The position numbers were made by a program, and so were the translations under genes. A DNA stretch of 60,043 nucleotides from a virus: the IMG/VR virus record IMGVR_UViG_3300018035_000100, positions 1-60,043 of that record. One strand, written 5' to 3'. Under the pieces are notes generated by a model that did no database searches, was not told where the DNA came from, and saw only the letters and a list, made by a program, of their open reading frames with translations. Below are positions 2,275 to 52,735 of this stretch, piece after piece. The number at the start of each line of letters is the position of its first letter. The first letter of the stretch is position 1.

Positions 2275-4209
2275 ATGAGTAATATATATAAAACATCCTA
2301 TAAAGAATTTCTTGATAAAATAACTTTTGTTCAATCAATAAAGTTGCGTCGATTACGGGCTGAAGTAGCTTTTTATAAATCAAAAATATTGTCTGCACAA
2401 AACCATTTGGAATCTCTTAAACTTGTAGAAGCTCAAATATTACAAAAGCTAAATCCAACTCAAGACACAATTTATTTACAAACATATTATACAGCAGACG
2501 CAAACCAGCAAACCAACCCTAAACAGTCTATTGCCCCTCTTATACCTTATGATATGTATGGCTTTCATCCGTCTATTTCGTTGTATGAAAAAAAAGTAAT
2601 GGTTGGAACGGAGAAGATTATTTCGGAACAATATCGTATAGGAAATGAAATACAACATTTAAATAGAAATATAATGCAATGGACAAATGAATTATCAAAT
2701 AAAACAACGGAATTAATTTCCCTTCAAGTAACAAACTCTAATAGTGAACAAACTGTATTAAGTTTGGATAATATTTCTGCAATTTGTTATCAAGAAATTT
2801 ATGCCCTAAATGAAATTAGTATACATTATAAAAACATTACTAGGGACGCAAATGGAAATATTGCTTTCCAAACTGATCCTAAATCTTTACGGGATTATAA
2901 TAATTTACGTATAAAATTTAAAAATTTAGCCTCTAAAAATCAATTTGTAATTAATGGGCAATTGCCTTTAGAATATGATGACCCGGGATCAGAATTGACT
3001 CGTTTATCCCTTATAACTTTTTTATCAATAGCAACTCAAGTTTTATCCCAGAGTACTCAAGATTGGAAAGACCCTATACAGAAGTATCAAAAACAATTAT
3101 CAGCTTTAATAAATGATCCTAGTTTTAATGTAAATATAGAGTCAGATTTTTACACTATTGGTGCTGACGAACAAATATCTTCTCAATTAGCGTCTCAACC
3201 AGCAGCCACTAATTTTGTAAACACTACTGTTGGAAATGCCGGATCAAACGAACTTATATCGGGAACCAATATAAGTAATGTTATAAATAATATTAATTCA
3301 AACCCACAAGATCAAAATAAAGTGGGGGTCCCGGTGCGACAAACAACATTACTTACTTTTTCCAATACAAGTTTAGTTGCTAGTATTCAAAGTTTTATGT
3401 CTAATAAAATTTCTCAACTTAATAGTTCTCTTATTAACGGGGTAACAGGAACCACCCCAATTTGCTCAGCCCCTACTAAATCGGTCCCAGAACAAACTAT
3501 AAGTTTATCGAATTCAGATATTGTTACAGCTGAGGCAAATGCATCTGCTTTATTTTCTTCGCAAATTGCATCTGCAGAAGCTCAATACACAGATGTTATG
3601 TCTTCCGTTAGCTCACAAATACAACAAGAAGAAACATCTCCCGCACCTGTAATTGCTACTGTAATTTCAAACCCATCAACAGATAATCTCGATCCATCAA
3701 CTTATAGAATTTTACAAAATTATTTAAATATTGCTGAGGGAAATGTATTAACCGCATACCTTGATACTAATGGGGTCCTAGCAATCGGAAGGGGGCATCA
3801 AGTAGATGGGGGGTCTTTGCCCAATGTGGATATAAACGGGGCTCCAATTACAATGCAAGGGCAAATGATCTCTCAAGCTCAAAGTGATGCATTTTTTGCT
3901 CAAGACATACAAATAGCTATAGATGGGGCTCGCTCTGTTCTTTCAACTATCGGTCTTATATATGATAGTCAACAACCTAATGTTCAAGTTGTTTTAGCTG
4001 AATTAGCCTATGAAATGGGAGAAGGAGGATTAGCAACATTTAGCAGAGGAATTATCCCCTTACTGTGTGATAATCAATTTTCTACTGCAGCAGATTCTTT
4101 CTCAGAACAGTTTAATAAAGGATTAATTAATATGCCTGCTGCTCGAGCAGATAGTACTATTCAGCTTATAAATATGTCGGGTATATGGACTCAAATCTCA
4201 ACACCTTAA
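2275..4209 (+). CDS. Baseplate-associated protein with C-terminal T4-type lysozyme (GH24) domain
   Basis: A 644-aa protein. Residues about 1-130 are helical with coiled-coil character and the middle is Ser/Asn/Gln-rich linker. Residues about 478-640 form a T4-lysozyme-like GH24 domain: E488 (AEGN), D497 (YLDT), then GRGH at 505-508, and later AELAYEMGEGGLATFSRG as in the second T4 lysozyme lobe. The E and D match T4 E11 and D20, but the residue aligned with T4 Thr26 is Ala503 (VLAIG where T4 has YYTIG). Its place among baseplate genes suggests local peptidoglycan cleavage during DNA injection, like T4 gp5, rather than host lysis. Lysozyme fold is sure; activity is less sure because of the Thr26 change. 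Confidence 0.85.
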   Translation: MSNIYKTSYKEFLDKITFVQSIKLRRLRAEVAFYKSKILSAQNHLESLKLVEAQILQKLNPTQDTIYLQTYYTADANQQTNPKQSIAPLIPYDMYGFHPSISLYEKKVMVGTEKIISEQYRIGNEIQHLNRNIMQWTNELSNKTTELISLQVTNSNSEQTVLSLDNISAICYQEIYALNEISIHYKNITRDANGNIAFQTDPKSLRDYNNLRIKFKNLASKNQFVINGQLPLEYDDPGSELTRLSLITFLSIATQVLSQSTQDWKDPIQKYQKQLSALINDPSFNVNIESDFYTIGADEQISSQLASQPAATNFVNTTVGNAGSNELISGTNISNVINNINSNPQDQNKVGVPVRQTTLLTFSNTSLVASIQSFMSNKISQLNSSLINGVTGTTPICSAPTKSVPEQTISLSNSDIVTAEANASALFSSQIASAEAQYTDVMSSVSSQIQQEETSPAPVIATVISNPSTDNLDPSTYRILQNYLNIAEGNVLTAYLDTNGVLAIGRGHQVDGGSLPNVDINGAPITMQGQMISQAQSDAFFAQDIQIAIDGARSVLSTIGLIYDSQQPNVQVVLAELAYEMGEGGLATFSRGIIPLLCDNQFSTAADSFSEQFNKGLINMPAARADSTIQLINMSGIWTQISTP

Positions 4210-4967: not shown

Positions 4968-7900
4968 ATGTCAGATTCAACTGTAACTCTTATTAGTCCT
5001 TTAAACGATTCTACTGGACAACTTTTAGAGACTAATTTTTCGTGGTCGTTATATCCCACAGATTCAAGTGCAACTTATGAACTTCAAGTTGCTACTGATA
5101 GTTCATTTTCTAATATAATTTTTGATTTAACAGAAATACCTTTTACATCGAGAATAGTTAGTAATTTAGATTCTGGGATCGAATATTATTGGCAAGTTAT
5201 AGCTTTTTCAGACTCTAGTTATTTTGATTCTTCTACTTGGTCTTTTACAACAGCTTCAATTGCTGCTCCTAATATTATTCTTCTTTCTGGAGGAACGGAT
5301 TATAGCACGGATGATGCTATACAGACTATTTCTGGAATGGCCCCCTCTAATACAGTTCAAATTCAAGTTAATGGCTCTCTTTTTGGAGTATCTTATACTG
5401 CTGGTGAAAATATATGGTCTTGGACTGGGACTCTTTCTTTGGGAGTAAATGAAATACAAGTTACTGCAATCATTCAAGTCGGATCTACGTATGTCACATC
5501 AGCCCCAGCTTTTATTAATATTACTTTAGTTCAACAACAAGAATCATTTTTAACGGTGTCGGCTCCTACAGGTGTTAGTCTCAGGTCATATCAAAATATG
5601 GTACAGATTATAACATCTGAAAGCATTAACCAAAATATAGTAGGTTATAATTTTTATGTAAGTTATCAAAGTGGTGGAGTTAATGGATCTTACGTTAAAA
5701 TAAATAGTTCTGCTATAACTGAAATGTCTTTTTATCAAGATTCTACGTCACTTATTAATTCCTCAACTGAAACCGTTGGTGAAATAAGTGTGACTACTCT
5801 TACTCAACAAATTACTAGAAATTATTATTATTCAACGAATTTTGATAGTACTGCATATAATACAATGGTTCAAAATAATCAACTTCCTAATGTAGGATTC
5901 AATCAAGGGACAGATTTTTATTTTGTTGTAACTGAAACTATTTATGATCCTACACAAGGAAAAGTTACAGAAAGTCCTTATTCTATAGAATTAGAAGGTT
6001 CGCCATTAACTATTTTAAGTGGATTGACTGATCTTCCTGCAAGAACTAGACAAGACATAAGTTTAACTTTTAATACTGAACTTATGAGTGCTGATACTGG
6101 AATAGATTCGATGTCTGGAACTGTTTTTAGAGATATTACAGATCCAATAGCAGAAGAAAATGCTCGTTTGTATGTAATACAAGATTTTTTATCAATAGCA
6201 AATTCAGTAAGTACTTTACAGGATTTTGATGATCCAACTGGATCGGGAGTGAGTATTCCCCCATCAAACTCCCCTGCAAAAACTGCTTTGCAAATAGCCC
6301 TTAATTTGACAACAGCCGATGCCGTTCAAGCCCTTATAGATAATCAATTTGATAAACTTGCTTCAAATTGTAATACTTATCGTTTACCAGCAACATCTGC
6401 AGTTGGATCGGTAGTGTTTTATACCGTCACTGCTCCTATCAGGGATATGCAAGTATCGGCTGGAGCAATAGTTTCAACTCTCGGAGATGTAAACAATAAT
6501 ATTCAAGCCCAATCATATAGTGTACTAGAAACAAAGGTTTTATCAGCAGCAAACAAAGCCCAATATTTTAATAGTTCTACACAACAATATGAATTAGAAT
6601 GTGCTGTGCAAGCTATAACTCCTGGGTCGGCTGGAAATACCGATGCGGATACGATTAGGGCTATTGGAACAGGAGTAGATTCCGGATTCTCTGTTGAAAA
6701 TCCTAATCCAATATCTTTTGGAACAGATTTAGAAAGTAACTATGAATTAGCGGGTCGTATGCAATTAGCTTTTTTTGCGGATACTGGAACCAAAGGTGGA
6801 TACGCTAAAACAACAATTGCAGTTCCCTATGTACAAAATGTGGTTGTGCAAGGAGCGGGTGATCCCCTTATGATAAGAGATTATGATCCAACCACTGAAG
6901 AACATATAGGAGGTAAAGTCGATATTTATGTTCAGGGATCTATCGTTCAACAAGAAGTTGATAATATTTCATTTGCTTTTAGTTCAAGTGAAAATATGGG
7001 TCAACAAATAGGGGAACGTTTTGATATCGTGAATGCTGTAGCTTTCCAAATAGAATCTTTAAATCCATTAGTTACAGCTCATACTCCTATTTTTGATGTT
7101 TTAAATGTATATAATGCTACTCGAGGGGCATCATACAATCTCGGTGGGTTAACAATTATTGGAGACGGAAATATTATTGCTTTAAATGTTGCACTAAATT
7201 CCAGTATAGGAATGGCTACTACAGATATTATTTATGTTGATTATTTATATCGAAGTTCGGATACTATTATTTTGCAAAATCAACCTGTTATCGATATTGT
7301 GTCTATAGTCGGTCAATTATCTGGTGTTTTAACTTCCGATAACTGGGAACTTGTTAAGTTACAAGACCCGTTAGATACGGGAAATTCTACTATTTCACAA
7401 GATGGGGTTCTTATACAATATGCAAATGGAATTCCTGGAGACGCAACTCAAGCTATTTCTCAAGAACAACACGTTCTTATATACGGAGTTACGGAACCTT
7501 TAGATCTTTTGGGAATTATTCCGTCTACCATAGTAGTAACTAGTACCACTTTTCCTACTGTAACTTACACTGAAAATTTAGATTATAATATTTTTCCTGG
7601 TAGTAATACAACAGCAATAAATATAGAGCCTATTACATCTGGAGCTATTAAAAATGGAGAAACTGTTTATGTTAATTATTCAGCTTTTGAAAATTTTGCA
7701 ATAACATATACAACTAATGCTCTACTTGAAAATGTTCAAACTAAAATCAATTTAATGAAACATGCTTGTGCTGATGTTATAGTTAAACAAGCTGTTAATA
7801 ATAATGTAAATATTACTATGACAGTTGTTCCATTACCTATGGTTATAACGACTCCAAACTCGTCCCTTGCTTTAACTTCTCAAATTACATCAACACTTGC

Positions 7901-34146: not shown

Positions 34147-35001
34147 ATGCAAAAAATTATATTACATTATAATAAAAAGTTATGGAAAGAAATCATTCCT
34201 AAGCCATATAACACTTTGCAAATATTTATTACCAATAAGTGTAATCTTAGGTGTAAGGGATGTTTTTATGAATCCCGTATAGAGAATTCAGAAATGTCCT
34301 TTGATAATTACAAGAATATAGTTAATCGAGCTCCAAAAGACATACATAAAATTGTACTTATGGGAGGGGAACCAACTTTACATCCAGATATTATAGAAAT
34401 GATTAAATATAATCAAAACAAAAATTTAAAAACTACTATTTATACTAATGGAGTAAATCTTTCTATTTTAGAAAAAATAAATCTTAAAAATGTTGATGTC
34501 AGAATTGGAGTTTTAGGGGCAATTACAGGAGAAAAAAATCTTAAAGATATTATGCCCTCGGATATACCAGTCACAATAGTTTATATGCTTCGAAAAAATA
34601 ATATAGGAGAATTGTTAATAGCTTCTAAAATGGCAGAGACATTTAACTGTAAACAATTCTTTTTATCGTCTATTCGAGATATAACAGTAACAGGGAACTT
34701 TTGGAAAGATACAGATGATACAGTTTCAAATGAAGAATATTGCGAAATTGTACAAAATTTTTTAAATTTTTATAATGGAAAAATAAAAAAGATTCATATA
34801 GCGTCTAGAGGAATACTTGAAACAACACAAAATAAAATGACGTGTCAGACATGTCGATTTGGTAATATTTTTCCTAATGGAGAAATTATAACTTGCCCAT
34901 TCGATATAGCATTAAATAAAATTTCTACAGATTTTGAATATGGTAGATTATGTAATAAAAATGGCTGTGTACTACAAAAAATAATACTCGAACGAAAATG
35001 A
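34147..35001 (+). CDS. Radical SAM protein inside the replication operon
   Basis: A 284-aa protein. CNLRCKGC (CxxxCxxC, about residues 31-38) binds the SAM iron-sulfur cluster. MGGEPTLHPD and a TTIYTNG strand follow, as in MoaA/AlbB-type enzymes. C-terminal CQTCRFGNIFPNGEIITCPFD and NKNGC look like a SPASM-type extra cluster. It is sandwiched between the DnaB-like helicase (2-nt gap) and the primase zinc-finger gene (4-nt overlap), so it is co-expressed with the replisome. Substrate unknown. It has a different sequence from the radical SAM protein at 31006. Confidence 0.8.
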   Translation: MQKIILHYNKKLWKEIIPKPYNTLQIFITNKCNLRCKGCFYESRIENSEMSFDNYKNIVNRAPKDIHKIVLMGGEPTLHPDIIEMIKYNQNKNLKTTIYTNGVNLSILEKINLKNVDVRIGVLGAITGEKNLKDIMPSDIPVTIVYMLRKNNIGELLIASKMAETFNCKQFFLSSIRDITVTGNFWKDTDDTVSNEEYCEIVQNFLNFYNGKIKKIHIASRGILETTQNKMTCQTCRFGNIFPNGEIITCPFDIALNKISTDFEYGRLCNKNGCVLQKIILERK

Positions 35002-39720: not shown

Positions 39721-40434
39721 ATGGTCTTTTCGTCTGACCCACACGCGTTTATATCCAAAAATGATAGTGAAATAAAAAAAATAATATATGTGTTGTGTTT
39801 AAAAAATCATATGAATATCCATAATATAGAAGATTTTTTTCAAGACTTTTACGTTAGATTTGTAACTCAAGATGCTCTTAAAAAATATGATTCTACCCAA
39901 GTAAAAATATCCACCTATGTATATACGATAATTAAAAATATGATTCGTCAGCAAAAAAAATCTAATGAGCATAAAGTCCGTTCCCACGAAATAACCTCTT
40001 TTTTTCAAGACTCTCCAACCTCTACTTCTGTTTCCAGTATTGATACTTTTCAATTTACTGTAAAATGTGCTCCGGATTACGAAACTACTTTATCTATTAA
40101 TAATACAACCGATCAAATAGATGGTATAAATTTTGATTTTGATTTGTTTGAAGATTGGCTACAGAAACATAATAAAATTTATAAACTAACACATCGAAAA
40201 AATCAAAACATAACTATAAAAGTAACTATGCTTAAAATATTTAAAATGATGCGAAAAGGTCATACAAATCGATCAATAGCCTCGTATTTCGGAGTATCTG
40301 ATATGTTTATTACATATATACGGGATGATATAAAAGAAAAAATGAAGCGTTTTGGCTTTAGATGGGCAGAAAAGAAACGGATAGTAGAATCTAAGAAAGT
40401 TGAGAATACAAAAAAGATTTCTTATGAATATTAA
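39721..40434 (+). CDS. Sigma-factor-like protein (regions 2 and 4)
   Basis: A 237-aa protein with ribosome site AAGGAG. IEDFFQDFYVRFVTQDALKKYDSTQVKIST and YVYTIIKNMIRQQKK follow sigma region 2 (core binding and -10 melting). VTMLKIFKMMRKGHTNRSIASYFGVSDMFITYIRDDIKEKM is a region 4-like helix-turn-helix. The linker between them is Ser/Thr/Asp-rich. Size and layout resemble compact phage sigma factors such as T4 gp55, which direct host polymerase to late genes. Its own promoter is host-type, which fits an early-to-middle gene that switches on late genes. The late promoter sequence is not clear here. Confidence 0.7.
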   Translation: MVFSSDPHAFISKNDSEIKKIIYVLCLKNHMNIHNIEDFFQDFYVRFVTQDALKKYDSTQVKISTYVYTIIKNMIRQQKKSNEHKVRSHEITSFFQDSPTSTSVSSIDTFQFTVKCAPDYETTLSINNTTDQIDGINFDFDLFEDWLQKHNKIYKLTHRKNQNITIKVTMLKIFKMMRKGHTNRSIASYFGVSDMFITYIRDDIKEKMKRFGFRWAEKKRIVESKKVENTKKISYEY

Positions 40435-41341: not shown

Positions 41342-41524
41342 ATGTCATTTCCAGACTCAGACATTATCATTAAAAAGGACGGATCAAAAGTTGAGCTAGA
41401 ATCTTTAGAACATAGTGAAAGATGTTTTAAGCTTCGGGACTTGGCCAAGAAACTTGGAAAAGTAACTGAAGACAAGGATAAGGACCATGTCCCGGCATAT
41501 CAGGAAACACACATTAACAACTAA
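41342..41524 (+). CDS. DUF2997-like small protein, first gene of the Ycf triad
   Basis: A 60-aa protein with a strong ribosome site (AAAGGAG). DIIIKKDGSKVELESLEHSERCF, then LAKKLGKVTEDKDKDHVPAY, follows the short DUF2997 layout: beta strand with dG, a central Cys, LG, and an aromatic end. It sits 30 nt before a DUF1257 gene and a Ycf46-type AAA+ gene. This grouping is what makes the assignment credible. It is encoded partly by GC-rich codons (CGGGACTTGGCCAAG). Function unknown. Confidence 0.55.
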   Translation: MSFPDSDIIIKKDGSKVELESLEHSERCFKLRDLAKKLGKVTEDKDKDHVPAYQETHINN

Positions 41525-41554
41525 TTAAAAACAATTTTTTACGGAGGCTTATTT

Positions 41555-41866
41555 ATGTCTATGAAAGCTGTAATACACACGGAAATTCGTAATATGTCGA
41601 TTTTAAAGGATACCTTAACCGAAATGGGGTATAAGTTTTCTGCTGTCGGGGCCGATGCTCTATCTATCCAAGCTGCCTATCCTATGTCGATTAATTGTGC
41701 TAAAGGTGAAATTAATTATGATTCATCTGATAAGACAGCGGTAGAAAAAATTATGGTCTCATATCAGAGAAAGTTTATTCGAGATCAAGCTATCGCTGAG
41801 GGATCACAAGTTTATGAAGAAGTCTTGGATAATGGAGATATTCATATTTCCATCCGTAACAGCTAA
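41555..41866 (+). CDS. DUF1257 (Ycf35-like) protein
   Basis: A 103-aa protein with an ACGGAGG ribosome site. The N-terminus IHTEIRNMSILKDTLTEMGY and the C-terminus VSYQRKFIRDQAIAEGSQVYEEVLDNGDIHISIRN match the DUF1257/Ycf35 pattern (I.T.I.....L...L...G, then Y....v...a...G..v......dG.i.i...). The middle is shorter than in plastid Ycf35. It lies between a DUF2997-like gene and a Ycf46-type ATPase. Function unknown in any organism to my knowledge. Confidence 0.7.
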   Translation: MSMKAVIHTEIRNMSILKDTLTEMGYKFSAVGADALSIQAAYPMSINCAKGEINYDSSDKTAVEKIMVSYQRKFIRDQAIAEGSQVYEEVLDNGDIHISIRNS

Positions 41867-41915
41867 TTTTTTAAGAGTCTTCCCCGAGTGTGCTGGGGTA
41901 TTTTCCTTTTAACGA

Positions 41916-41954
41916 AAAACACACTCTTAAAAGAAAAACTTAAGAGTGTGTTTT
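41916..41954 (+). terminator. Perfect 15-bp stem-loop terminator before the AAA+ gene
   Basis: AAAACACACTCTTAA (41916-41930) pairs perfectly with TTAAGAGTGTGTTTT (41940-41954) around a 9-nt loop. The right arm ends in four T, with TATAT after. The segments TTAAGAGT (41871-41878) and GAGTGTG (41886-41892) upstream can pair with the left arm instead, so the terminator could be switched. Confidence 0.65.
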
Positions 41955-41976
41955 ATATCCGTGATTGGAACTAAAA

Positions 41977-43560
41977 ATGCTTTCAATTAATGATTGTCTA
42001 TTAGGAAATAGACCGCTTATTTTTGTTGTGTGTGAAAATGATATAGAATTATTAAATTATTTAAACGAAAATAAAGCCCATAATTTTTTCATTTACAGTA
42101 AAACTCTTACTAATTTAGTTCCACTAGATGATCTTTTATCCACGCAATATCAACCTAAAATTGCTTCCAGAAAAACTGATATTGAAGTTCTAGACACCAT
42201 TCTTCATTGGGAATTTAAAGAAGTTAAAGCTAACGATACTTATATCTTTTTGGATTGTGATTTAAATGATAAACAAGTAATCAGAAAAATTAAAGATATA
42301 CTCGGTAGGTTTCAATTGGATACCGAATTTCTTATAAGTATGGTATTCGTGTCACAATGCATTTCCATTCCACAACCTTTAGAACGAATGGGTGAACTCG
42401 TATTTTTTGATACTACTGAAAAAGCTGCTCGAGAAAAAGTAGAGACTATAACTGCAAGAATGGATCTATCAGATGAAGAACGTCCATCAGAAGAAGTAAT
42501 AAGTAATCTTAAAGGGCTCACACTATTTGAAATAGAACAAGCTTTTACTCAAAGTTGGCAGCTTCACGGAAAGATTGATATAGATTTTATACGATCATTT
42601 AAAAAATCTGCTATTGTTAAAACTGGATTTTTAAGTCTTATAGAATCGGATGTAACATTTAATCATATAGGTGGAATGGATGTACTTAAAGAATGGATTC
42701 GAAAAAGTTCGGGTGGATGGACGGTTAAGGGACAAGAATACGGTCTCCCAAATTTAAAAGGTGTACTTTTAATAGGTTTACCTGGATGCGGAAAATCTCT
42801 TGCAGCTAAAGCTTTAGGAAATGAGTGGAAACTACCTTTAATACAATTTGACCCATCAAAAGTTTTTTCGTCTCGAGTTGGAGAAAGTGAATCTAATCTT
42901 CGCCGAGTTTTACAAATGATAGAGAATATTTCTCCTTGTATTCTTTTTATAGATGAAATTGAAAAAGGATTTGCAGGATCTCAATCCTCTTCTTTTAGTG
43001 ATGCTGGGGTTACGGCCCGGATTTTGGGTACATTCCTTACGTGGATGCAGGATTGTGTTAAACCTGTTTTTACAGTTGCCACATCAAATAATATAGCTTA
43101 TTTACCACCTGAAATGATTCAACGTTTTGACGAGAAGTTTTTTGTTAATCTTCCGTCTCCATCGGAGCAATCTGAAATTTATAATATTCAACTTAAAAAA
43201 GTTCGAAGGGATCCTGTTAAATTTGATATAGAAAAATTAGTGAAAAACAGTAAAGATTTGTCGGGTCGTGAAATCGAACAAGTTATAAAAGAATCTATGT
43301 ATGATTCTTTTTATAAAGGAAAAGAAATTGATACTGAAAATGTGTTGGAAGTTTTAAAAAAGAAGACTAATTTACTTTCTACTATGGCGGAACAATTAAA
43401 ATTTATTTTAGATTGGGTTGAGTGGGATGAAGAAAAGAAAGATGGCAAGCGAGCTCGATTTGCAAGCAAACCAGATAGCATTGAAATTTATAAAATACAA
43501 AGTGAAATTGATTCTCTTATAAAAGACATAGAAAAAAAGAAGCCGTTTTCAAGAGAATAA
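41977..43560 (+). CDS. Ycf46-type AAA+ ATPase
   Basis: A 527-aa protein. I take ATG 41977 (GGA 7 nt upstream); TTG 41965 would add MELK. The N-terminal domain, residues 1-200, starts MLSINDCLLGNRPLIFVVCENDIELLNYL, as in Ycf46, with IFLDCDLND. The AAA+ module has GLPGCGKS (about 266-274), CILFIDEIEKG (about 321-331), ATSNNIAYLPPEMIQRFD (sensor 1 and arginine finger) and SGREIEQVIKES (sensor 2 region). Ycf46-type proteins are found in cyanobacteria, plastids and large phages, with function unknown. Co-located with DUF2997 and DUF1257 genes; a switchable terminator precedes it. Confidence 0.85.
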   Translation: MLSINDCLLGNRPLIFVVCENDIELLNYLNENKAHNFFIYSKTLTNLVPLDDLLSTQYQPKIASRKTDIEVLDTILHWEFKEVKANDTYIFLDCDLNDKQVIRKIKDILGRFQLDTEFLISMVFVSQCISIPQPLERMGELVFFDTTEKAAREKVETITARMDLSDEERPSEEVISNLKGLTLFEIEQAFTQSWQLHGKIDIDFIRSFKKSAIVKTGFLSLIESDVTFNHIGGMDVLKEWIRKSSGGWTVKGQEYGLPNLKGVLLIGLPGCGKSLAAKALGNEWKLPLIQFDPSKVFSSRVGESESNLRRVLQMIENISPCILFIDEIEKGFAGSQSSSFSDAGVTARILGTFLTWMQDCVKPVFTVATSNNIAYLPPEMIQRFDEKFFVNLPSPSEQSEIYNIQLKKVRRDPVKFDIEKLVKNSKDLSGREIEQVIKESMYDSFYKGKEIDTENVLEVLKKKTNLLSTMAEQLKFILDWVEWDEEKKDGKRARFASKPDSIEIYKIQSEIDSLIKDIEKKKPFSRE

Positions 43561-43591
43561 TGAAATTTTAAAACATCTTAGGAAAAAAATT

Positions 43592-43966
43592 ATGACTACA
43601 CCATGTAGCGAGTATGAGCAAGTTATTACTGATGATAAGAGCCAAACAGATGACAAAAATCAAACAGCGTTAAAGTTCTCTGATCCTAATGAGCCTTTAA
43701 CATTGAAACAATTAGAGTTGTTTGGGGCACATTTTCAAGGTAAGCGATACTCAGGTGAAACGGTAATAAGAACATGGGAAATAAGCATCCCCGATTTCGA
43801 TTCAGATTTTAAGAAGGCTAGGACTTATTTGTCATTGGTAGATGATAGAAACCCAACGGCCAATGAAATAATAAAAGCAATATGCCTGGAGATTAAACGC
43901 GAGACGGCATTTGTGGTGACGGAAGCAATTGAGAAAACGTTAATGAAGTTTCGGTTGTGGATTTAA
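43592..43966 (+). CDS. Hypothetical protein (124 aa)
   Basis: Starts 31 nt after the AAA+ gene with AGGAAAAAAA upstream. The N-terminal 35 residues are polar and disordered (ITDDKSQTDDKNQT). The rest is a compact helical domain (KQLELFGAHFQGKRYSG, FKKARTYLSLVDDRNPTANEII, EKTLMKFRLWI). No family recognised. Its codons are slightly richer in G/C than those of its neighbours. Follows the Ycf triad and may be its fourth member. Confidence 0.6.
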   Translation: MTTPCSEYEQVITDDKSQTDDKNQTALKFSDPNEPLTLKQLELFGAHFQGKRYSGETVIRTWEISIPDFDSDFKKARTYLSLVDDRNPTANEIIKAICLEIKRETAFVVTEAIEKTLMKFRLWI

Positions 43967-44014
43967 AGCGTATATTTTCATTGTTTTAATAAAGTAAAAA
44001 AGGAAATTAGCAAG

Positions 44015-44323
44015 GTGGAAAAAACTATAAAAGTAAAATTAGAATATGGTTTACATGCCAGACCTTCTGCTTTTATTGTAGCTAAACTTTCCAAAATGAA
44101 TCTTACTGAGGCAATTTTAATCCATAAAGAATGTGAAATAAGTCTCAAAAGTGTATTATCACTTATCGCAGAATGTATTGAAACTGATGATGAGGTTATA
44201 GTAAAAATATCGGGTCCTGATGAAATTGAAGCAATGAAAATAGTAGAAGATACTTTAGAATCTACAAATAAAAAAGATGTTTTTGGAATTGAACCTTATG
44301 AATCAAAAGAAAAGAAAAAATAA
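44015..44323 (+). CDS. HPr-like phosphocarrier protein
   Basis: A 102-aa protein starting with GTG (AAAAAGGAAA upstream). YGLHARPSAFIVAKL carries the active-site histidine (H14; His15 in bacterial HPr) with the invariant RP. EISLKSVLSLIAECIETDDEVIVKISGPDEIEA has S46 at the regulatory serine place, with the usual K-S pair. The core fold is complete and there is a short charged tail (YESKEKKK). It could be phosphorylated by host Enzyme I and divert PTS flux or HPr-dependent regulation. Unusual as a phage gene. Confidence 0.8.
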   Translation: MEKTIKVKLEYGLHARPSAFIVAKLSKMNLTEAILIHKECEISLKSVLSLIAECIETDDEVIVKISGPDEIEAMKIVEDTLESTNKKDVFGIEPYESKEKKK

Positions 44324-44534
44324 AAAAGATATCCCTCAAATTAATGAATATTCTGTAAAATATCTGGAACATTTATGGGATTGGGATAAAAGTTGGAATG
44401 ATGTCCCGACAAATCAAGTATTTAGAACAGATTTAAAACACCGGTCCTCAAAAAAACAAAATAAAAAGAAAGTTGTACCTAAAATAAATAAAACATCACG
44501 ATACGAACTTTTAAAAAAATTATGGTCAAAATAA
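44298..44534 (+). CDS. Small basic hypothetical protein (78 aa)
   Basis: Start placed at ATG 44298 (MNQKKRKNKKDIPQ), overlapping the HPr-like gene by 26 nt; an in-frame ATG at 44277 lies deeper in that gene. The protein is strongly basic (about one quarter Lys/Arg) with aromatic residues in the middle (YLEHLWDWDKSWNDVP). It could bind nucleic acid. No family recognised. Confidence 0.55.
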   Translation: MNQKKRKNKKDIPQINEYSVKYLEHLWDWDKSWNDVPTNQVFRTDLKHRSSKKQNKKKVVPKINKTSRYELLKKLWSK

Positions 44535-44546
44535 TGTGGAGCAATT

Positions 44547-44888
44547 ATGAATTTAGCTCGAATTTATCCTAATACATGTCCGATATGTGGTGGTAATAAA
44601 AAGAAAGAGCAGAAAGGTTGTTTCCATTGTGCCAGATGTGAAATCTTCGAGGCATGTAACTATACGGATGATCCTATAGCAGAATATTTAGATTTGATCA
44701 AGCAACGTCTTGTAACGTTCTACCAAAAAGTTTATGCTAAGGATATAAAGAATGGTTGCACTTATGTTGATTTTATGAAAAAATATGAAAAATATTTGCA
44801 AAAAATGGAGCGAGCGCGAAAGAAATGGGAAAAGAATCCGTTTAATCTTAAAAATTCGTATAAGAAAGTAAAAAAGAAGGATGCATAA
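44547..44888 (+). CDS. Zinc-ribbon hypothetical protein (113 aa)
   Basis: The N-terminus has a CPICGG and CFHCARC four-Cys ribbon within residues 10-33. The remainder is a long lysine-rich helix (YEKYLQKMERARKKWEKNPF). It looks like a small nucleic-acid-binding or RNA-polymerase-directed protein, by composition only. Starts 12 nt after the basic protein and overlaps the next small gene by 8 nt. Confidence 0.6.
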   Translation: MNLARIYPNTCPICGGNKKKEQKGCFHCARCEIFEACNYTDDPIAEYLDLIKQRLVTFYQKVYAKDIKNGCTYVDFMKKYEKYLQKMERARKKWEKNPFNLKNSYKKVKKKDA

Positions 44889-45009
44889 TATAATTCCTAT
44901 TTATTTTGGTATAATTATAGGATTTATCGTAGGTTGGCTGATCAATGAAACAGTTCACGTTGTGGAAACTCGAAAGGGAAAGAATATCTCAAAAAAGGAA
45001 AGGGGTTAG
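44881..45009 (+). CDS. Small membrane protein (42 aa)
   Basis: ATG 44881 overlaps the end of the zinc-ribbon gene and runs to TAG 45007-45009. Residues 4-21 (IIPIYFGIIIGFIVGWLI) form one transmembrane helix, followed by a basic cytoplasm-type tail (RKGKNISKKERG). One-helix small membrane proteins cluster further on at 47312-48126. Function unknown. Confidence 0.5.
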   Translation: MHNIIPIYFGIIIGFIVGWLINETVHVVETRKGKNISKKERG

Positions 45010-45010
45010 T

Positions 45011-45076
45011 ATGCCTGAAGAATTTCTTACCAAAGACGATAAAAAAGGGAAGTTGTGGTTGGGTTATGAAGTGTGA
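45011..45076 (+). CDS. Possible very small protein (21 aa)
   Basis: ATG 45011 after GGGG runs to TGA 45074-45076 (MPEEFLTKDDKKGKLWLGYE). It overlaps the next gene by 11 nt in another frame. A one-base shift would join it to that gene, so it may be the lost N-terminus of the neighbour rather than a gene. Confidence 0.3.
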   Translation: MPEEFLTKDDKKGKLWLGYEV

Positions 45077-45359
45077 AGATGGCAGGTGGGTAAATGAGGA
45101 AGGAAAATACCAACCTCAACTTGAAGAAAAATCAAAAACAGAAAGAGGTTTTATAACCCTAAATGTTGGAGCTCTAGCAAGAGGAACCGCTCGTAGTTTC
45201 TTGACAAACTCGAAATTTATAGGTCGAGACATTGAATGGACAGAAACTAAAACTTTTCTTGCAAGTGAATTTTGTATTAAGGGGCCTAAAATCACCTTGC
45301 AAACTATGATGAAGGAAATAAGAGATTGGCAAAAAGGAATAGATCTTGTTCAAGGCTAA
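45066..45359 (+). CDS. Hypothetical protein (97 aa)
   Basis: The product is MKCEDGRWVNEEGKYQPQL..., then TERGFITLNVGALARGTARSFLTNSKFIGRDIEWTETK and a helical end (KITLQTMMKEIRDWQKGIDLVQ). No clear ribosome site precedes ATG 45066, which fits coupling to, or a former fusion with, the 21-aa frame upstream. No family recognised. It precedes the VWA gene. Confidence 0.5.
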   Translation: MKCEDGRWVNEEGKYQPQLEEKSKTERGFITLNVGALARGTARSFLTNSKFIGRDIEWTETKTFLASEFCIKGPKITLQTMMKEIRDWQKGIDLVQG

Positions 45360-45483
45360 AGGGTCTTTGAAGCGATCGCTGGTTTTATACAAAAATTAGA
45401 TGAACTTTTTATTATCAGTTGTGGATTTACTATCATCAGCAGTCCAGCCTGAGATAGGAAGTAAATCAAACCCGGAGGTTTTT

Positions 45484-46860
45484 ATGATTAAAATTTCAAC
45501 GTTGTTCGATTTTGACAAAGTATCTTTTGAAAAAGAAAGTGATGTCCATCTTGATGTCATTCTCAAGGCCCCGGCCCGGGACATGTCCAAGCGCATTCCA
45601 TTACACCTGATTCTTGCAATAGATTGTTCAGGTTCTATGATAGGAACTAAACTTTCTCAAGTAAAATCCACAGTTAAAAAGTTAGTAGATCATCTTACAG
45701 AAAATGATAGCTTAGGTATTATTTCTTTTGCTAGCAATGCTCAAGAAGTCACATCTACTGTTCCTATGACAGATGCGAACAAAAAATATGCAAAAGAGCA
45801 GATAGACGGAATTCAAGCATCTAGTGTAACTAATCTTAGTGAAGCTATTACTTTTGCTACTGAACGATCGATTTCAGCAGATAAATCTAAAGTATGTAGA
45901 ATAATACTTTTAACTGATGGTCAGCCCACTTGTGGAACATGTGATCGTGATAGTCTTATAAAACTTGTAGAAACCATAAACCCCTCAATTTCTATATCTA
46001 CATTTGGATATGGCTCAGATTTTGATTCAGATCTTATGTCCTCTATTTCTACAACGGGTCGAGGAAATAATTTTTATATTAAAGAAGATTTAGATTGTAA
46101 TAGTGCTTTTGCTGCAGAACTAGGGGGATTGTTATCTCTTTATGGTCAAAACATAAAAATACGGTTATCCCCCTCTTCTAATATGTCTTTTACGGAACTT
46201 TTAAGTGAGTATAAATGCGAGCAAAAAAATGGATATCGTTTAATTACTCCTTCTAAATTTGATGTTTCTATAGACGATATATTTGCTGGAGAAAGTAAAC
46301 ATATTATTATGAAATTAAAAGTTCCTAAGGCTACAGAGGCGGTGTGTGCTAGAGAAACTTCTGTTTGTAAAATTATTGTTGATTATTTAGATGTAGAAAC
46401 AAAAGTTACTCAATCTGTTTCAGCTACCGCAAAAATACAATATGTGAAAGAAGACAAGACTTCCAAAATAGCGAATAAAACTGTCCGGGAACAATTGGCA
46501 ATTATTGAGGCTATTAAAATCCAGAAAGCTGCAAAAGAAGAAGCTGAAAAGCAGAATTATACTGCGGCACAGGAAATTCTTACTAAAGGGATTGCTTGGG
46601 CAGCCAATAATATAGATCTTGGAGCTATGGCTCCTGCCTTAACAGGGACTTATTCTGCTATGTCTATAAGTTATTCCTCAGCAACTAATTATAATTTGGT
46701 AGGTTCAAAACTATCAAATTCTTTTTATCAAACAATGGCAAAAGGTAGAGCGGCTACGTCAAATGATATTGGCAGTGGGATTATTTATGAAACTTCCACA
46801 ATGCAGGAAGTAGAAAAATCTTTTAAAGATGATACATCTAAAAAGAAAAGGAATAAATAA
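45484..46860 (+). CDS. Von Willebrand factor A (VWA) domain protein
   Basis: Start at ATG 45484 with a strong ribosome site (GGAGG, 8 nt upstream); the open frame extends to 45400 but is unlikely to be used. In the 458-aa product, residues about 40-220 are a VWA domain with a complete-looking MIDAS: DCSGSM near residue 47, a Thr in SVTNLSEA, and ILLTDGQP near 143. The second half is beta-rich, then helical (KIQKAAKEEAEKQNYTAAQEIL). VWA proteins often work with AAA+ ATPases as metal-dependent adaptors; a Ycf46-type AAA+ protein is encoded 2 kb upstream. That link is inference. A GC-rich cluster encodes LKAPARDMS. Confidence 0.85.
   Translation: MIKISTLFDFDKVSFEKESDVHLDVILKAPARDMSKRIPLHLILAIDCSGSMIGTKLSQVKSTVKKLVDHLTENDSLGIISFASNAQEVTSTVPMTDANKKYAKEQIDGIQASSVTNLSEAITFATERSISADKSKVCRIILLTDGQPTCGTCDRDSLIKLVETINPSISISTFGYGSDFDSDLMSSISTTGRGNNFYIKEDLDCNSAFAAELGGLLSLYGQNIKIRLSPSSNMSFTELLSEYKCEQKNGYRLITPSKFDVSIDDIFAGESKHIIMKLKVPKATEAVCARETSVCKIIVDYLDVETKVTQSVSATAKIQYVKEDKTSKIANKTVREQLAIIEAIKIQKAAKEEAEKQNYTAAQEILTKGIAWAANNIDLGAMAPALTGTYSAMSISYSSATNYNLVGSKLSNSFYQTMAKGRAATSNDIGSGIIYETSTMQEVEKSFKDDTSKKKRNK
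45566..45588. repeat. GC-rich palindromic cluster E (in frame)
   Basis: Twenty-three bases, AGGCCCCGG, CCCGGG and ACATGTCC, encoding KAPARDMS at the start of the VWA protein. It shares AAGGCCCCGG with the clusters at 23086 and 53261, and GGCCCGGGAC with 53261. Confidence 0.65.
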
Positions 46861-49715: not shown

Positions 49716-50112
49716 AGATAACACAAAAAAATTGTTTGATAAATATCCTAAAATTTTTGCAGACAAACCTGGTCCAGAGTATCTAATATCCCCATGTCAA
49801 TATTATGGGATCGAGTGTGGAGATGGATGGTATAATATTATTGACGCATTGTGTTGTTCCATCCAGCATCATATCGATATTACAAAATGCCAACAAGTTA
49901 TTGTAGAACAAATAAAGGAAAAGTTTGGAGAACTTAGATTTTATATTCAAGGTGGAGACGATACTGTACGGGATTTGATATCTTTTGCAGAAATATTATC
50001 TATAAAAACTTGTGAAATATGTGGGAGCCCTGGAATAACCCGAAATAAGCAGTGGATACAAACTCTATGTAATAAATGCGAGACTTTAGAAGATGATACG
50101 TCAACAGAATAA
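49708..50112 (+). CDS. Phage hypothetical protein, GDGWY / EKFGELRFY family
   Basis: A 134-aa protein. LFDKYPKIF, GIECGDGWYNIIDALC, VIVEQIKEKFGELRFYIQGGDDTV and TCEICGSPG with LCNKC at the end form a pattern I know from many phage genomes as a conserved protein of unknown function. The C-terminal four cysteines probably bind zinc. It overlaps the helicase start by 20 nt. Confidence 0.7.
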   Translation: MNKDNTKKLFDKYPKIFADKPGPEYLISPCQYYGIECGDGWYNIIDALCCSIQHHIDITKCQQVIVEQIKEKFGELRFYIQGGDDTVRDLISFAEILSIKTCEICGSPGITRNKQWIQTLCNKCETLEDDTSTE

Positions 50113-52735
50113 TAATATCTTCAATAAAGAATTTTTCCCCCCTATTTCTAATCCCCAAGAAAAAAATTATGGATTGAATGCGGAACAGTATTCCGCTATT
50201 TTATCTAGCCCAGTAACATATATCAATGCAAGTGCCGGGTCTGGAAAAACTAGATGTCTAATTGCTAAAATTCGTCTGCTTTTAGATTCTGGTACAAAAC
50301 CAGAAAATATTTGCGCTATCACATTTACGAATAAAGCAGCTAAAGAAATACTAGATCGGCTTTCTAAATATACTGATGTCTCAGCAATGCAAATATCAAC
50401 GATACATTCAATGTGTGTGAAAATTATTAAAAAATTTTTACACCATACTTATTTAAAATCACCTTTTTCTATTTACGATGATTCGGATTCGGAATCGATA
50501 ATCAGAACCGTTATTAAAGCAATGAAAAAAGACGAGTTAACTGTAGAAGAATGCTCAAAATTTATTAGTAAATTTAAAGAAGAAGGAATAAATGCATTAC
50601 AAGAATTTAATGGAAATGAACAAATTTTTATGGAGATTCTGAATAGATATCAGAAAATTTTACAAAAAAATAATGCTTGCGATTTTGATGACCTTTTAGT
50701 TTTAGCTTTAAATTGTTTAAAACAAGATGATTGTAGATATTATTTTACACATTTATGGACATCAATACTAGTTGATGAATTTCAAGATACTAGTACATGT
50801 CAATATGATATAATTAAATTATTATATGATCCAACTATAACAAAAGATATATTTGTTGTAGGAGATTTAAATCAATGCGTGACCGAACAAACAGTTATAG
50901 AAACTGAAAACGGGATAAAACAGTTTAAAGATTTTAATGAAAAAGACTGCATGATAAGATGTGCGACGGGATCTGGAAAAAGCGGAATGGGAAATATAAC
51001 TGGACGATACCAGAAATTTGTGGAAGATTTTCCAGTTATAACTGTAACAACAAAAGAAGGATTTACTTTAACTTCCTCCTATAACCACATTTATTTTGCA
51101 GGATTTAATAAATTATCGATGACAAAATCATTTTATGTGTATCTTATATATAAAAAAGATTTAGGCTATAGAATTGGATTAACAGGAGGGATGTTTAACG
51201 ATTTTACAGTAATATTAAATCAAAATCTGGGGGATGCTCTTTGGATCTTGGGAGTATTCAAAAAAGAAAAAGAAGCTAAATATCATGAATATTTTTATTC
51301 AATAAAATATGGGATTCCAACTTGGGCTTTTCAAATTTCTTATAGAAACCTTAATACAGGATACGATGACGAAAGTATAAAAAAACTATTTTTAAATATA
51401 GATACAAGAAAAAATGCACAAAAATTATTTGATAACTTATTTTTATCTACAGAATTTCCACATTACATATCTCAAGCAAAAAAAATAAATAAAATAGAAA
51501 GCGGAAAACTCACAGAATTTTCTTTAGCAAAAATTCCTGCATCAAATCTCATAATAGGAATGAGTTGTTTTATTTATAAAAACAATACTATAGAAATGGA
51601 TACGATAGTAAGTTTAAATAAAGATTTGTATACTGGATTTTTGTATGATATAGACGTAAACCATTCTCATAATTTTATAGGAAATGGAATTGTAACTCAT
51701 AATTCCATTTATGGGTGGAGATCAGCAAAACCAGAAAACGTACAAAAATATATAAAAGAATTCGGGGCGCAAACTCATTGGCTCACCTATAATTATAGAT
51801 CCTCTCCAGAAATATGTACTCATGCTTCTAAATTTTTACAGTTTGGACCTCCAATGGTCCCAAAAATAGTTTCTCCCGGAAAAGTATCAATTACAGTTTT
51901 TGAATCTTTTGAAGACGAAGCTAGAAAGATAACTGCAAATATATTTCAAAAAGGTAAAGAATATTATTCTGAAACTGCAATTATATATCGAATGAATTCA
52001 AGATCCTTGTTTTTTGAAAGAGAATTAACAAAAGCAAACATACCCCACAAAGTTGTTAATTCTTTACCATTTTACCAGCATAAAGTTATAAAAGATCTTT
52101 TGGCAGCCCTTAAAGCCTCTAATAATATGGAGGACCGAGAGAGTTTGGCTAGAATTATTAATAGGCCAAAAAGAGGCTTTGGTGATGCTAAAAAAGAACA
52201 ACTTTTATTACATGGTCAGGATTATATAAAAGAAATAAGAAAAGATCTTCCACATATCGATAATTTTTTACATATTTTAGAAGACATAAAAGGAAAGCGC
52301 CCTGCCGACGCCATCACGGAATATTTAAATAGAACGAAATATTTAGAAATTGTCGAAACAGATGACGATCGATCTTTAATTGATTCTTTACGAAATATAA
52401 TTTTAGAATATAATAATGTTGAAGAACTATTATTAGCCAGTACATTTTTAGAAAAAGAAAAGAAAAATGGAGTAACTTTAACAACAGCTCATGGAGCAAA
52501 AGGACTGGAATGGAAAAGAACTTTTGTTACATCCCTTGATTGTTGGCCCCACCCCAACTCTCTTGACATATTAGAGGAAAATCGACTTTACTATATGGCG
52601 ATTACTAGAGCACACGATTTTGTGAACATTAGCTATTCAAAAACCAGACCCTATAGAGGAACCATTATAGAGTGCTATCCCAGTAATCTATTCAAAAAAA
52701 GCTATAAAGAAATTTATGGCAGAGATTATAATTAA
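50093..52735 (+). CDS. UvrD/Rep-type superfamily 1 DNA helicase carrying an intein
   Basis: An 880-aa precursor. Extein motifs: INASAGSGKTR (motif I, about 44-54), AITFTNKAAKEI (Ia), VDEFQDTS (II), VVGDLNQ then SIYGWRSA (III, split by the intein), LTYNYRSS (IV), VTLTTAHGAKGLEWKRTFV (V) and LYYMAITRA (VI). After removal of residues 262-537 the helicase is about 604 aa, a normal UvrD/Rep length. A 3'-5' helicase for repair, recombination or fork restart. The intein sits within the most conserved helicase loop (GDLNQ|C...N|SIYGW). Confidence 0.92.
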   Translation: MIRQQNNNIFNKEFFPPISNPQEKNYGLNAEQYSAILSSPVTYINASAGSGKTRCLIAKIRLLLDSGTKPENICAITFTNKAAKEILDRLSKYTDVSAMQISTIHSMCVKIIKKFLHHTYLKSPFSIYDDSDSESIIRTVIKAMKKDELTVEECSKFISKFKEEGINALQEFNGNEQIFMEILNRYQKILQKNNACDFDDLLVLALNCLKQDDCRYYFTHLWTSILVDEFQDTSTCQYDIIKLLYDPTITKDIFVVGDLNQCVTEQTVIETENGIKQFKDFNEKDCMIRCATGSGKSGMGNITGRYQKFVEDFPVITVTTKEGFTLTSSYNHIYFAGFNKLSMTKSFYVYLIYKKDLGYRIGLTGGMFNDFTVILNQNLGDALWILGVFKKEKEAKYHEYFYSIKYGIPTWAFQISYRNLNTGYDDESIKKLFLNIDTRKNAQKLFDNLFLSTEFPHYISQAKKINKIESGKLTEFSLAKIPASNLIIGMSCFIYKNNTIEMDTIVSLNKDLYTGFLYDIDVNHSHNFIGNGIVTHNSIYGWRSAKPENVQKYIKEFGAQTHWLTYNYRSSPEICTHASKFLQFGPPMVPKIVSPGKVSITVFESFEDEARKITANIFQKGKEYYSETAIIYRMNSRSLFFERELTKANIPHKVVNSLPFYQHKVIKDLLAALKASNNMEDRESLARIINRPKRGFGDAKKEQLLLHGQDYIKEIRKDLPHIDNFLHILEDIKGKRPADAITEYLNRTKYLEIVETDDDRSLIDSLRNIILEYNNVEELLLASTFLEKEKKNGVTLTTAHGAKGLEWKRTFVTSLDCWPHPNSLDILEENRLYYMAITRAHDFVNISYSKTRPYRGTIIECYPSNLFKKSYKEIYGRDYN
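50876..51703 (+). other. Intein in motif III of the UvrD-type helicase (276 aa)
   Basis: It starts at Cys262 (GDLNQ|CVTEQTVIETENG) and ends at Asn537 (GNGIVTHN|S), with Ser538 as the +1 residue, so all splicing residues are present. Block B-like TVTTKEGFTLTSSYNHIYF and block F-like YDIDVNHSHNFIGNG are visible. The middle has YLIYKKDLGYRIGLTGG and ALWILGVFKKEKEAKYHEYFYSIKYGIPTWAF, a domain found in some UvrD inteins that resembles a GIY-YIG-like module. No LAGLIDADG motif. Confidence 0.9.

Follow-up and report, generated by a model that had tools for sequence, protein, structure and literature searches.

The window analysed here is a complete IMG/VR virus record of 60,043 bases (IMGVR_UViG_3300018035_000100, taken at its whole length) and, judged by its gene content, a fragment of a tailed phage. 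It contains three adjacent genes whose products fall in the families DUF2997, DUF1257 (Ycf35) and Ycf46-type AAA+ ATPases, a set referred to below as the triad, and it is their possible function as a single machine that is considered here. An earlier sequence-only reading had placed these genes and, further downstream, one gene each for an HPr-like and a VWA protein; all five open reading frames (ORFs) were confirmed in position and order, all on the plus strand. The triad region is composed as follows:

41342..41524, plus strand: divergent DUF2997-family protein of 60 amino acids (hhalign, invariant G14/C28, orthologues in the related loci L002 and L003)
41555..41866, plus strand: divergent DUF1257 (Ycf35-family) protein of 103 amino acids (iterated profile, hhalign, AlphaFold2 model)
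41916..41954, plus strand: perfect 15-bp inverted repeat with a T tract, terminator- or attenuator-like, between the DUF1257 and AAA genes
41977..43560, plus strand: Ycf46-type AAA+ ATPase (Pfam, PHROG, hhalign, motifs, tree)

The two small genes are preceded by ribosome-binding sites (a strong AAGGAG ahead of the 60-residue gene and GGAGG ahead of the 103-residue gene), while the AAA+ ORF as listed opens at a TTG at 41965, for which the ATG at 41977 is the better start by comparison with the relative L002. L002 and L003 hold clear orthologues of the triad, arranged as in the window, with the 60-residue gene at 5446-5622 and 3501-3674, respectively. The inverted repeat, for which hairpin analysis gave a folding z of -3.6, is missing from both of these nearest relatives. 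Given this hairpin and its T tract, the AAA gene of the window may be transcribed on its own or be subject to attenuation.

Residues 267-395 of the ATPase match Pfam AAA (PF00004) with E=8.7e-27, as against E=0.15 for AAA_3, so that a MoxR-type assignment was rejected, and the protein matches PHROG 8638 at 2.9e-92. Walker A (GLPGCGKS, 271-278), Walker B (FIDE, 328-331) and sensor 1 (N375) are all intact, and across 49 relatives they hardly vary. In its N-terminal half, the protein can be aligned with the sensor-1-to-lid part of its own C-terminal AAA domain (hhalign 89%, P=2.5e-6), and because of this match the protein is read as a dead N-terminal AAA domain followed by an active-looking C-terminal one. 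Pore loop 1 carries an Arg in the window protein, a Leu in most relatives and an aromatic residue in few. Only the window clade has lost the first arginine finger, through a deletion of two residues; the second (R387) is kept. The pair of fingers is no formal criterion for the family. The classical AAA domain is held in common with IetA (PADLOC, 3e-27) and with p97-type proteins (p97/Cdc48 in the PDB, 1e-41), but the likeness is limited to the common ATPase core; membership in the IetAS defence system was dismissed, as the IetA match covers only this core of about 210 residues, and no IetS model match was obtained among the ten window proteins scanned with PADLOC.

Among cellular genes, the window ATPase has its closest relatives in cyanobacteria and in the triad-linked AAA genes of other phyla. 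A tree of 54 sequences, which took in neither outside AAA families nor plastid Ycf46, joins the window, L002, L003, L020, L004 and L005 in one phage-only clade with full SH-aLRT (Shimodaira-Hasegawa-like approximate likelihood ratio test) support and leaves its sister group open. The phage form thus stands apart as a clade of its own, in which the gene order is reversed and an arginine finger has been lost. Within this clade, the Ycf46-type AAA genes of L003 (4930-6000) and L020 (4477-6000) carry different inteins, one within Walker A and the other just ahead of Walker B, the two having entered the ATPase core separately.

The two small proteins escape direct Pfam searches, and it is the more sensitive profiles that bear out the families to which the sequence-only reading had assigned them. 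The 103-residue protein has no match to Pfam DUF1257 (PF06868) at E<1, does not reach the gathering score and has no usable NCBIfam or PHROG match, and its orthologues in L003 and L020 match the Pfam model weakly (0.018 and 3.8e-4). When a DUF1257 profile was seeded with the viral members caught by the Pfam model and iterated over the fetched loci, the resulting hidden Markov model matched the window protein with E=1.2e-15, and hhalign against the family gave 99.6% and E=8.5e-25 over 101 columns. The 60-residue protein likewise has no Pfam DUF2997 (PF11211) match, falls short of the gathering score and has no usable NCBIfam or PHROG match. Compared with the DUF2997 family, it gave an hhalign probability of 90% (P=1.6e-6), whereas the same profile compared with DUF1257 gave nothing. 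Together with its orthologues it scored 30.5 against DUF2997, whereas 300 column-shuffled controls had a mean of 8.9, a standard deviation of 2.0 and a maximum of 14.8. G14 and C28 are invariant across 45 DUF2997 sequences, the window protein included, and L004 and L005 hold intermediate forms in the same gene order. Membership in the three families is shown by these iterated and profile-profile matches and, for the ATPase, by Pfam AAA.

Solved structures provided no convincing sequence match to either small family. The AlphaFold2 model of the DUF1257 protein (predicted local distance difference test, pLDDT, 82) has a beta-alpha-beta4-alpha-beta2 make-up and resembles TBP-like and KA1-like folds weakly (RnlA, Chk1 KA1 and the RNase H3 N-domain, TM 0.33-0.49), with no significant match in a fold search of the PDB.

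In order to see how strictly the three genes keep company, forty viral records were scanned whole, and the fetched loci were then scanned with the iterated profiles. Viral AAA relatives were clustered at 90% identity into 38 clusters, and partners were counted within 4 kb on the same strand; the DUF2997 genes of six window-clade members were entered by position, their sequence support being the shuffled-control score given above. DUF2997 was nearby in 33 of the 38 clusters, DUF1257 in 30 and both in 30, and in cellular loci one or both small genes lay near the AAA gene in 77 of 80. The converse survey chose loci by PF11211 alone, a family present in 8 of 398 Bacillota and 33 of 141 Myxococcota genomes sampled. 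An AAA gene of this kind adjoined DUF2997 in 34 of the 37 loci so chosen, DUF1257 in 33 and both in 31; moreover, DUF2997 was present somewhere in all 18 AAA-bearing genomes tested. The triad is therefore kept together from whichever side one looks. A survey of this kind had been named in the sequence-only reading as a possible refutation, and its outcome speaks strongly for the triad. Single-protein fusions of DUF1257 and DUF2997 were observed in several Bacillota, L130, L186 and L188/L189 being the true cases; what looked like an AAA-DUF1257 fusion in L115 was dismissed as a frame-overlap artefact, as were the long ORFs of L098 and L151.

The set is present in Rhizobium phage L338C and Pseudomonas phage SM1, where both small genes have Pfam gathering matches, in Aeromonas phage HJ05, where DUF1257 exceeds the Pfam cut-off and DUF2997 is recognised by profile, and, by profile, in Rhodobacter phage RcTiptonus. 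Like the window, L338C, HJ05 and SM1 carry all three families in a single stretch, where the annotations read AAA ATPase and hypothetical protein, but there the order is opposite, at least one extra gene lies between AAA and DUF1257, and the AAA belongs to another clade. More generally, the order is DUF2997-DUF1257-AAA in the window clade and AAA-DUF1257-DUF2997 in other phages and most cells. The sequence-only reading had taken the three families to be known from cyanobacteria and plastids; cyanobacterial relatives were indeed found, but the families are not confined there, the triad also occurring in Myxococcota, Spirochaetota, Planctomycetota, Bacillota, Nitrospirota and others. An FHA-domain coiled-coil gene lies just upstream of AAA in L088, L089, L098, L105, L112 and L152 (Myxococcota and similar), and in one large phage clade a DUF3150 gene is regularly found downstream of DUF2997 (L012, 8525-9436, and 17 other viral loci).

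In cyanobacterial loci a 116-residue gene, AAA and DUF1257 lie in a row, a Ycf46-type AAA followed by DUF1257 being seen in every photosynthetic locus sampled, and a second site carries DUF2997-Ycf35-ferredoxin-like genes. The row with AAA and DUF1257 fits the slr0373-slr0374(Ycf46)-slr0376 operon, which is co-regulated and induced by blue light and stress and in which a ycf46 mutation affects carbon use (PMC7496141). This operon resembles the phage in its adjacent AAA and DUF1257 genes, slr0376 being presumably DUF1257 on the strength of gene order; in contrast, the phage order is reversed with DUF2997 first, the 116-residue upstream gene is missing from the phage, and cyanobacteria keep DUF2997 elsewhere. 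Cluster g of Synechocystis (duf2997-ycf35-fed7, PMC4284462) has adjacent DUF2997 and DUF1257 genes, with the small gene leading as it does in the phage, but instead of an AAA gene it contains a 4Fe-4S ferredoxin-like gene. In red-algal plastids, losses of ycf35 and ycf46 follow similar patterns (PMC5940233); this and the match to the co-regulated operon speak for a joint system.

We consider it probable that the triad encodes one machine, in which a Ycf46-type AAA+ remodelling ATPase works with dedicated small partners, DUF1257 and DUF2997. The two are taken as dedicated subunits because of the strict company they keep and because of their fusion. By what is known of classical AAA proteins, the ATPase is expected to form a ring that pulls on a client or rearranges it at the expense of ATP. 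Here we infer that the ring is probably hexameric, its N-terminal AAA layer being inactive and its C-terminal one active; the two small proteins would bind to one another, to the ring or to both and would select or hold the client, ATP hydrolysis would drive the remodelling (disassembly or re-forming) of that client protein or complex, and the infecting phage would turn this activity on a client of its own or of the host. The non-aromatic pore loop 1 of most members suggests remodelling rather than full threading or unfolding. The proposal of one ATP-driven system with small subunits, made from the sequence, thus holds for the core triad, given the two-way adjacency and the fusions, but does not extend to the VWA and HPr-like proteins. 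A literature search, to which most subscription papers were out of reach, found no treatment of Ycf46, DUF1257 and DUF2997 as one system, and the only two papers within reach that name DUF1257 and DUF2997 together dealt neither with phages nor with a joint system. The genes ycf35 and ycf46, for long orphans of plastids and cyanobacteria, can now be tested with DUF2997 as parts of one system, which also offers a likely role frame for many phage proteins labelled merely as AAA-ATPase or hypothetical.

Several observations weigh against such a machine. In the window, a strong terminator-like hairpin divides the small genes from the AAA gene, so that the three need not share a transcript. Some relatives are without both partners nearby (L078, L083, L084 and L085), these being divergent or satellite AAAs, and in L007 the sequence stops at the AAA gene. 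The loss of the first arginine finger in the window clade makes ATPase activity uncertain there. Finally, an adaptor role for the small proteins draws no structural support from either model, the best fold match of DUF1257 being at E=0.011 and the DUF2997 model being of low confidence (pLDDT 51).

The remaining two genes noted downstream are:

44015..44323, plus strand: HPr-like protein, a neighbour outside the conserved set (Pfam PTS-HPr, 4.5e-16)
45400..46860, plus strand: VWA protein with an intact metal-ion-dependent adhesion site (MIDAS), a possible accessory (Pfam VWA, 1.3e-19)

The MIDAS (D75-x-S77-x-S79/T144/D173) is intact, as had been noted. One may also consider a larger machine, made of the AAA+ ring, the small adaptors and the VWA protein, like MoxR/RavA-ViaA. 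A relative of the VWA protein with 48% identity and an intact MIDAS does lie directly after the AAA gene in L003 (6857-8269), and L002 has a truncated remnant near its AAA gene, but these closest phages are the only ones with such a neighbour: none was found in L020, L004, L005 or the larger phage clade, a VWA gene is near AAA in just three of the 38 viral clusters (one of them truncated), and no cellular triad has one at close range. An IMG/VR scan for the window VWA returned only the L003 record and L166. The analogy to MoxR/RavA, drawn in the sequence-only reading, amounts to an AAA+ ATPase whose wider surroundings include a VWA gene and fails at the family level, since the ATPase is a classical AAA and the VWA protein is of an ITIH/sortase-target-like rather than a CoxE/ViaA type (VWA_CoxE, E=0.085); nor is the window VWA conserved with the set. 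The HPr-like protein, which keeps His14 (the phospho-His) and the Ser46-type Ser, has no relative near any triad and none in an IMG/VR pattern scan, so that its membership, too, is not supported. Thus, this larger assembly appears improbable, and the VWA protein would at best be an accessory specific to its lineage. HPr-like proteins are rare in phages, the matches being confined to unannotated records.

An alternative that we rate as unlikely, although less so, is that the module serves iron-sulphur (Fe-S)/radical S-adenosylmethionine (SAM) chemistry, the ring loading, repairing or releasing a client that the invariant Cys of DUF2997 handles, with phages aiming it at a host or phage Fe-S enzyme. 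An NrdG/PflA-like radical SAM gene adjoins AAA/DUF2997 genes in phage L006 (3967-4581) and in 17 cellular loci (L090, L091, L097, L099, L117, L118, L127, L138, L141, L142, L146, L150, L154, L155, L158, L159 and L160), the cyanobacterial DUF2997-Ycf35 pairs adjoin a 4Fe-4S ferredoxin-like gene (PMC4284462, cluster g), one Cys is invariant in the 45 DUF2997 sequences, and the Synechocystis ycf46 operon reacts to iron deficiency (PMC7496141). However, Myxococcota have the upstream FHA coiled-coil gene instead, cyanobacterial ycf46 loci have no NrdG-like gene nearby, and in most phages, the window included, the NrdG-like gene is not beside the set. No glycyl-radical enzyme was recognised beside the NrdG/PflA-like gene at L006 or at the 17 cellular loci. 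The window does encode a radical SAM protein (34147-35001), but this lies 7 kb away and is of another kind, and it was rejected as a counterpart of the linked cellular gene; it has partial MoaA/viperin-like matches and sits between a DnaB-like helicase and a primase-like gene. Alternatively, the three genes could be neighbours merely because early-region or cargo genes cluster, without sharing a function. Phage genomes retain neighbours by descent, the order of the triad varies by phage clade and the hairpin splits the set in the window, all of which would be in line with this, but in many bacterial phyla and in unrelated phages the same three families remain neighbours, whichever of the two orders they take, and two of them are fused; we regard such clustering as very improbable indeed. 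Returning to the proposed remodelling ATPase with its two dedicated partners, the recurrent Fe-S/radical-SAM neighbours are the best lead to its client. One might, tentatively and with considerable doubt, go further and regard Ycf46, DUF1257/Ycf35 and DUF2997 as one undescribed machine, widespread in plastids, cyanobacteria, many heterotrophic bacteria and phages, that acts on Fe-S/radical-SAM clients and that phages would have captured repeatedly to control the client while infecting.

Elsewhere in the window, a sigma-70 region-2-like protein is encoded at 39721-40434, just upstream of the triad, and is conserved in L002 and L003, and a UvrD-like helicase ORF (50093-52735) holds a 276-residue intein (50876-51703) between GDLNQ and SIYGWR.

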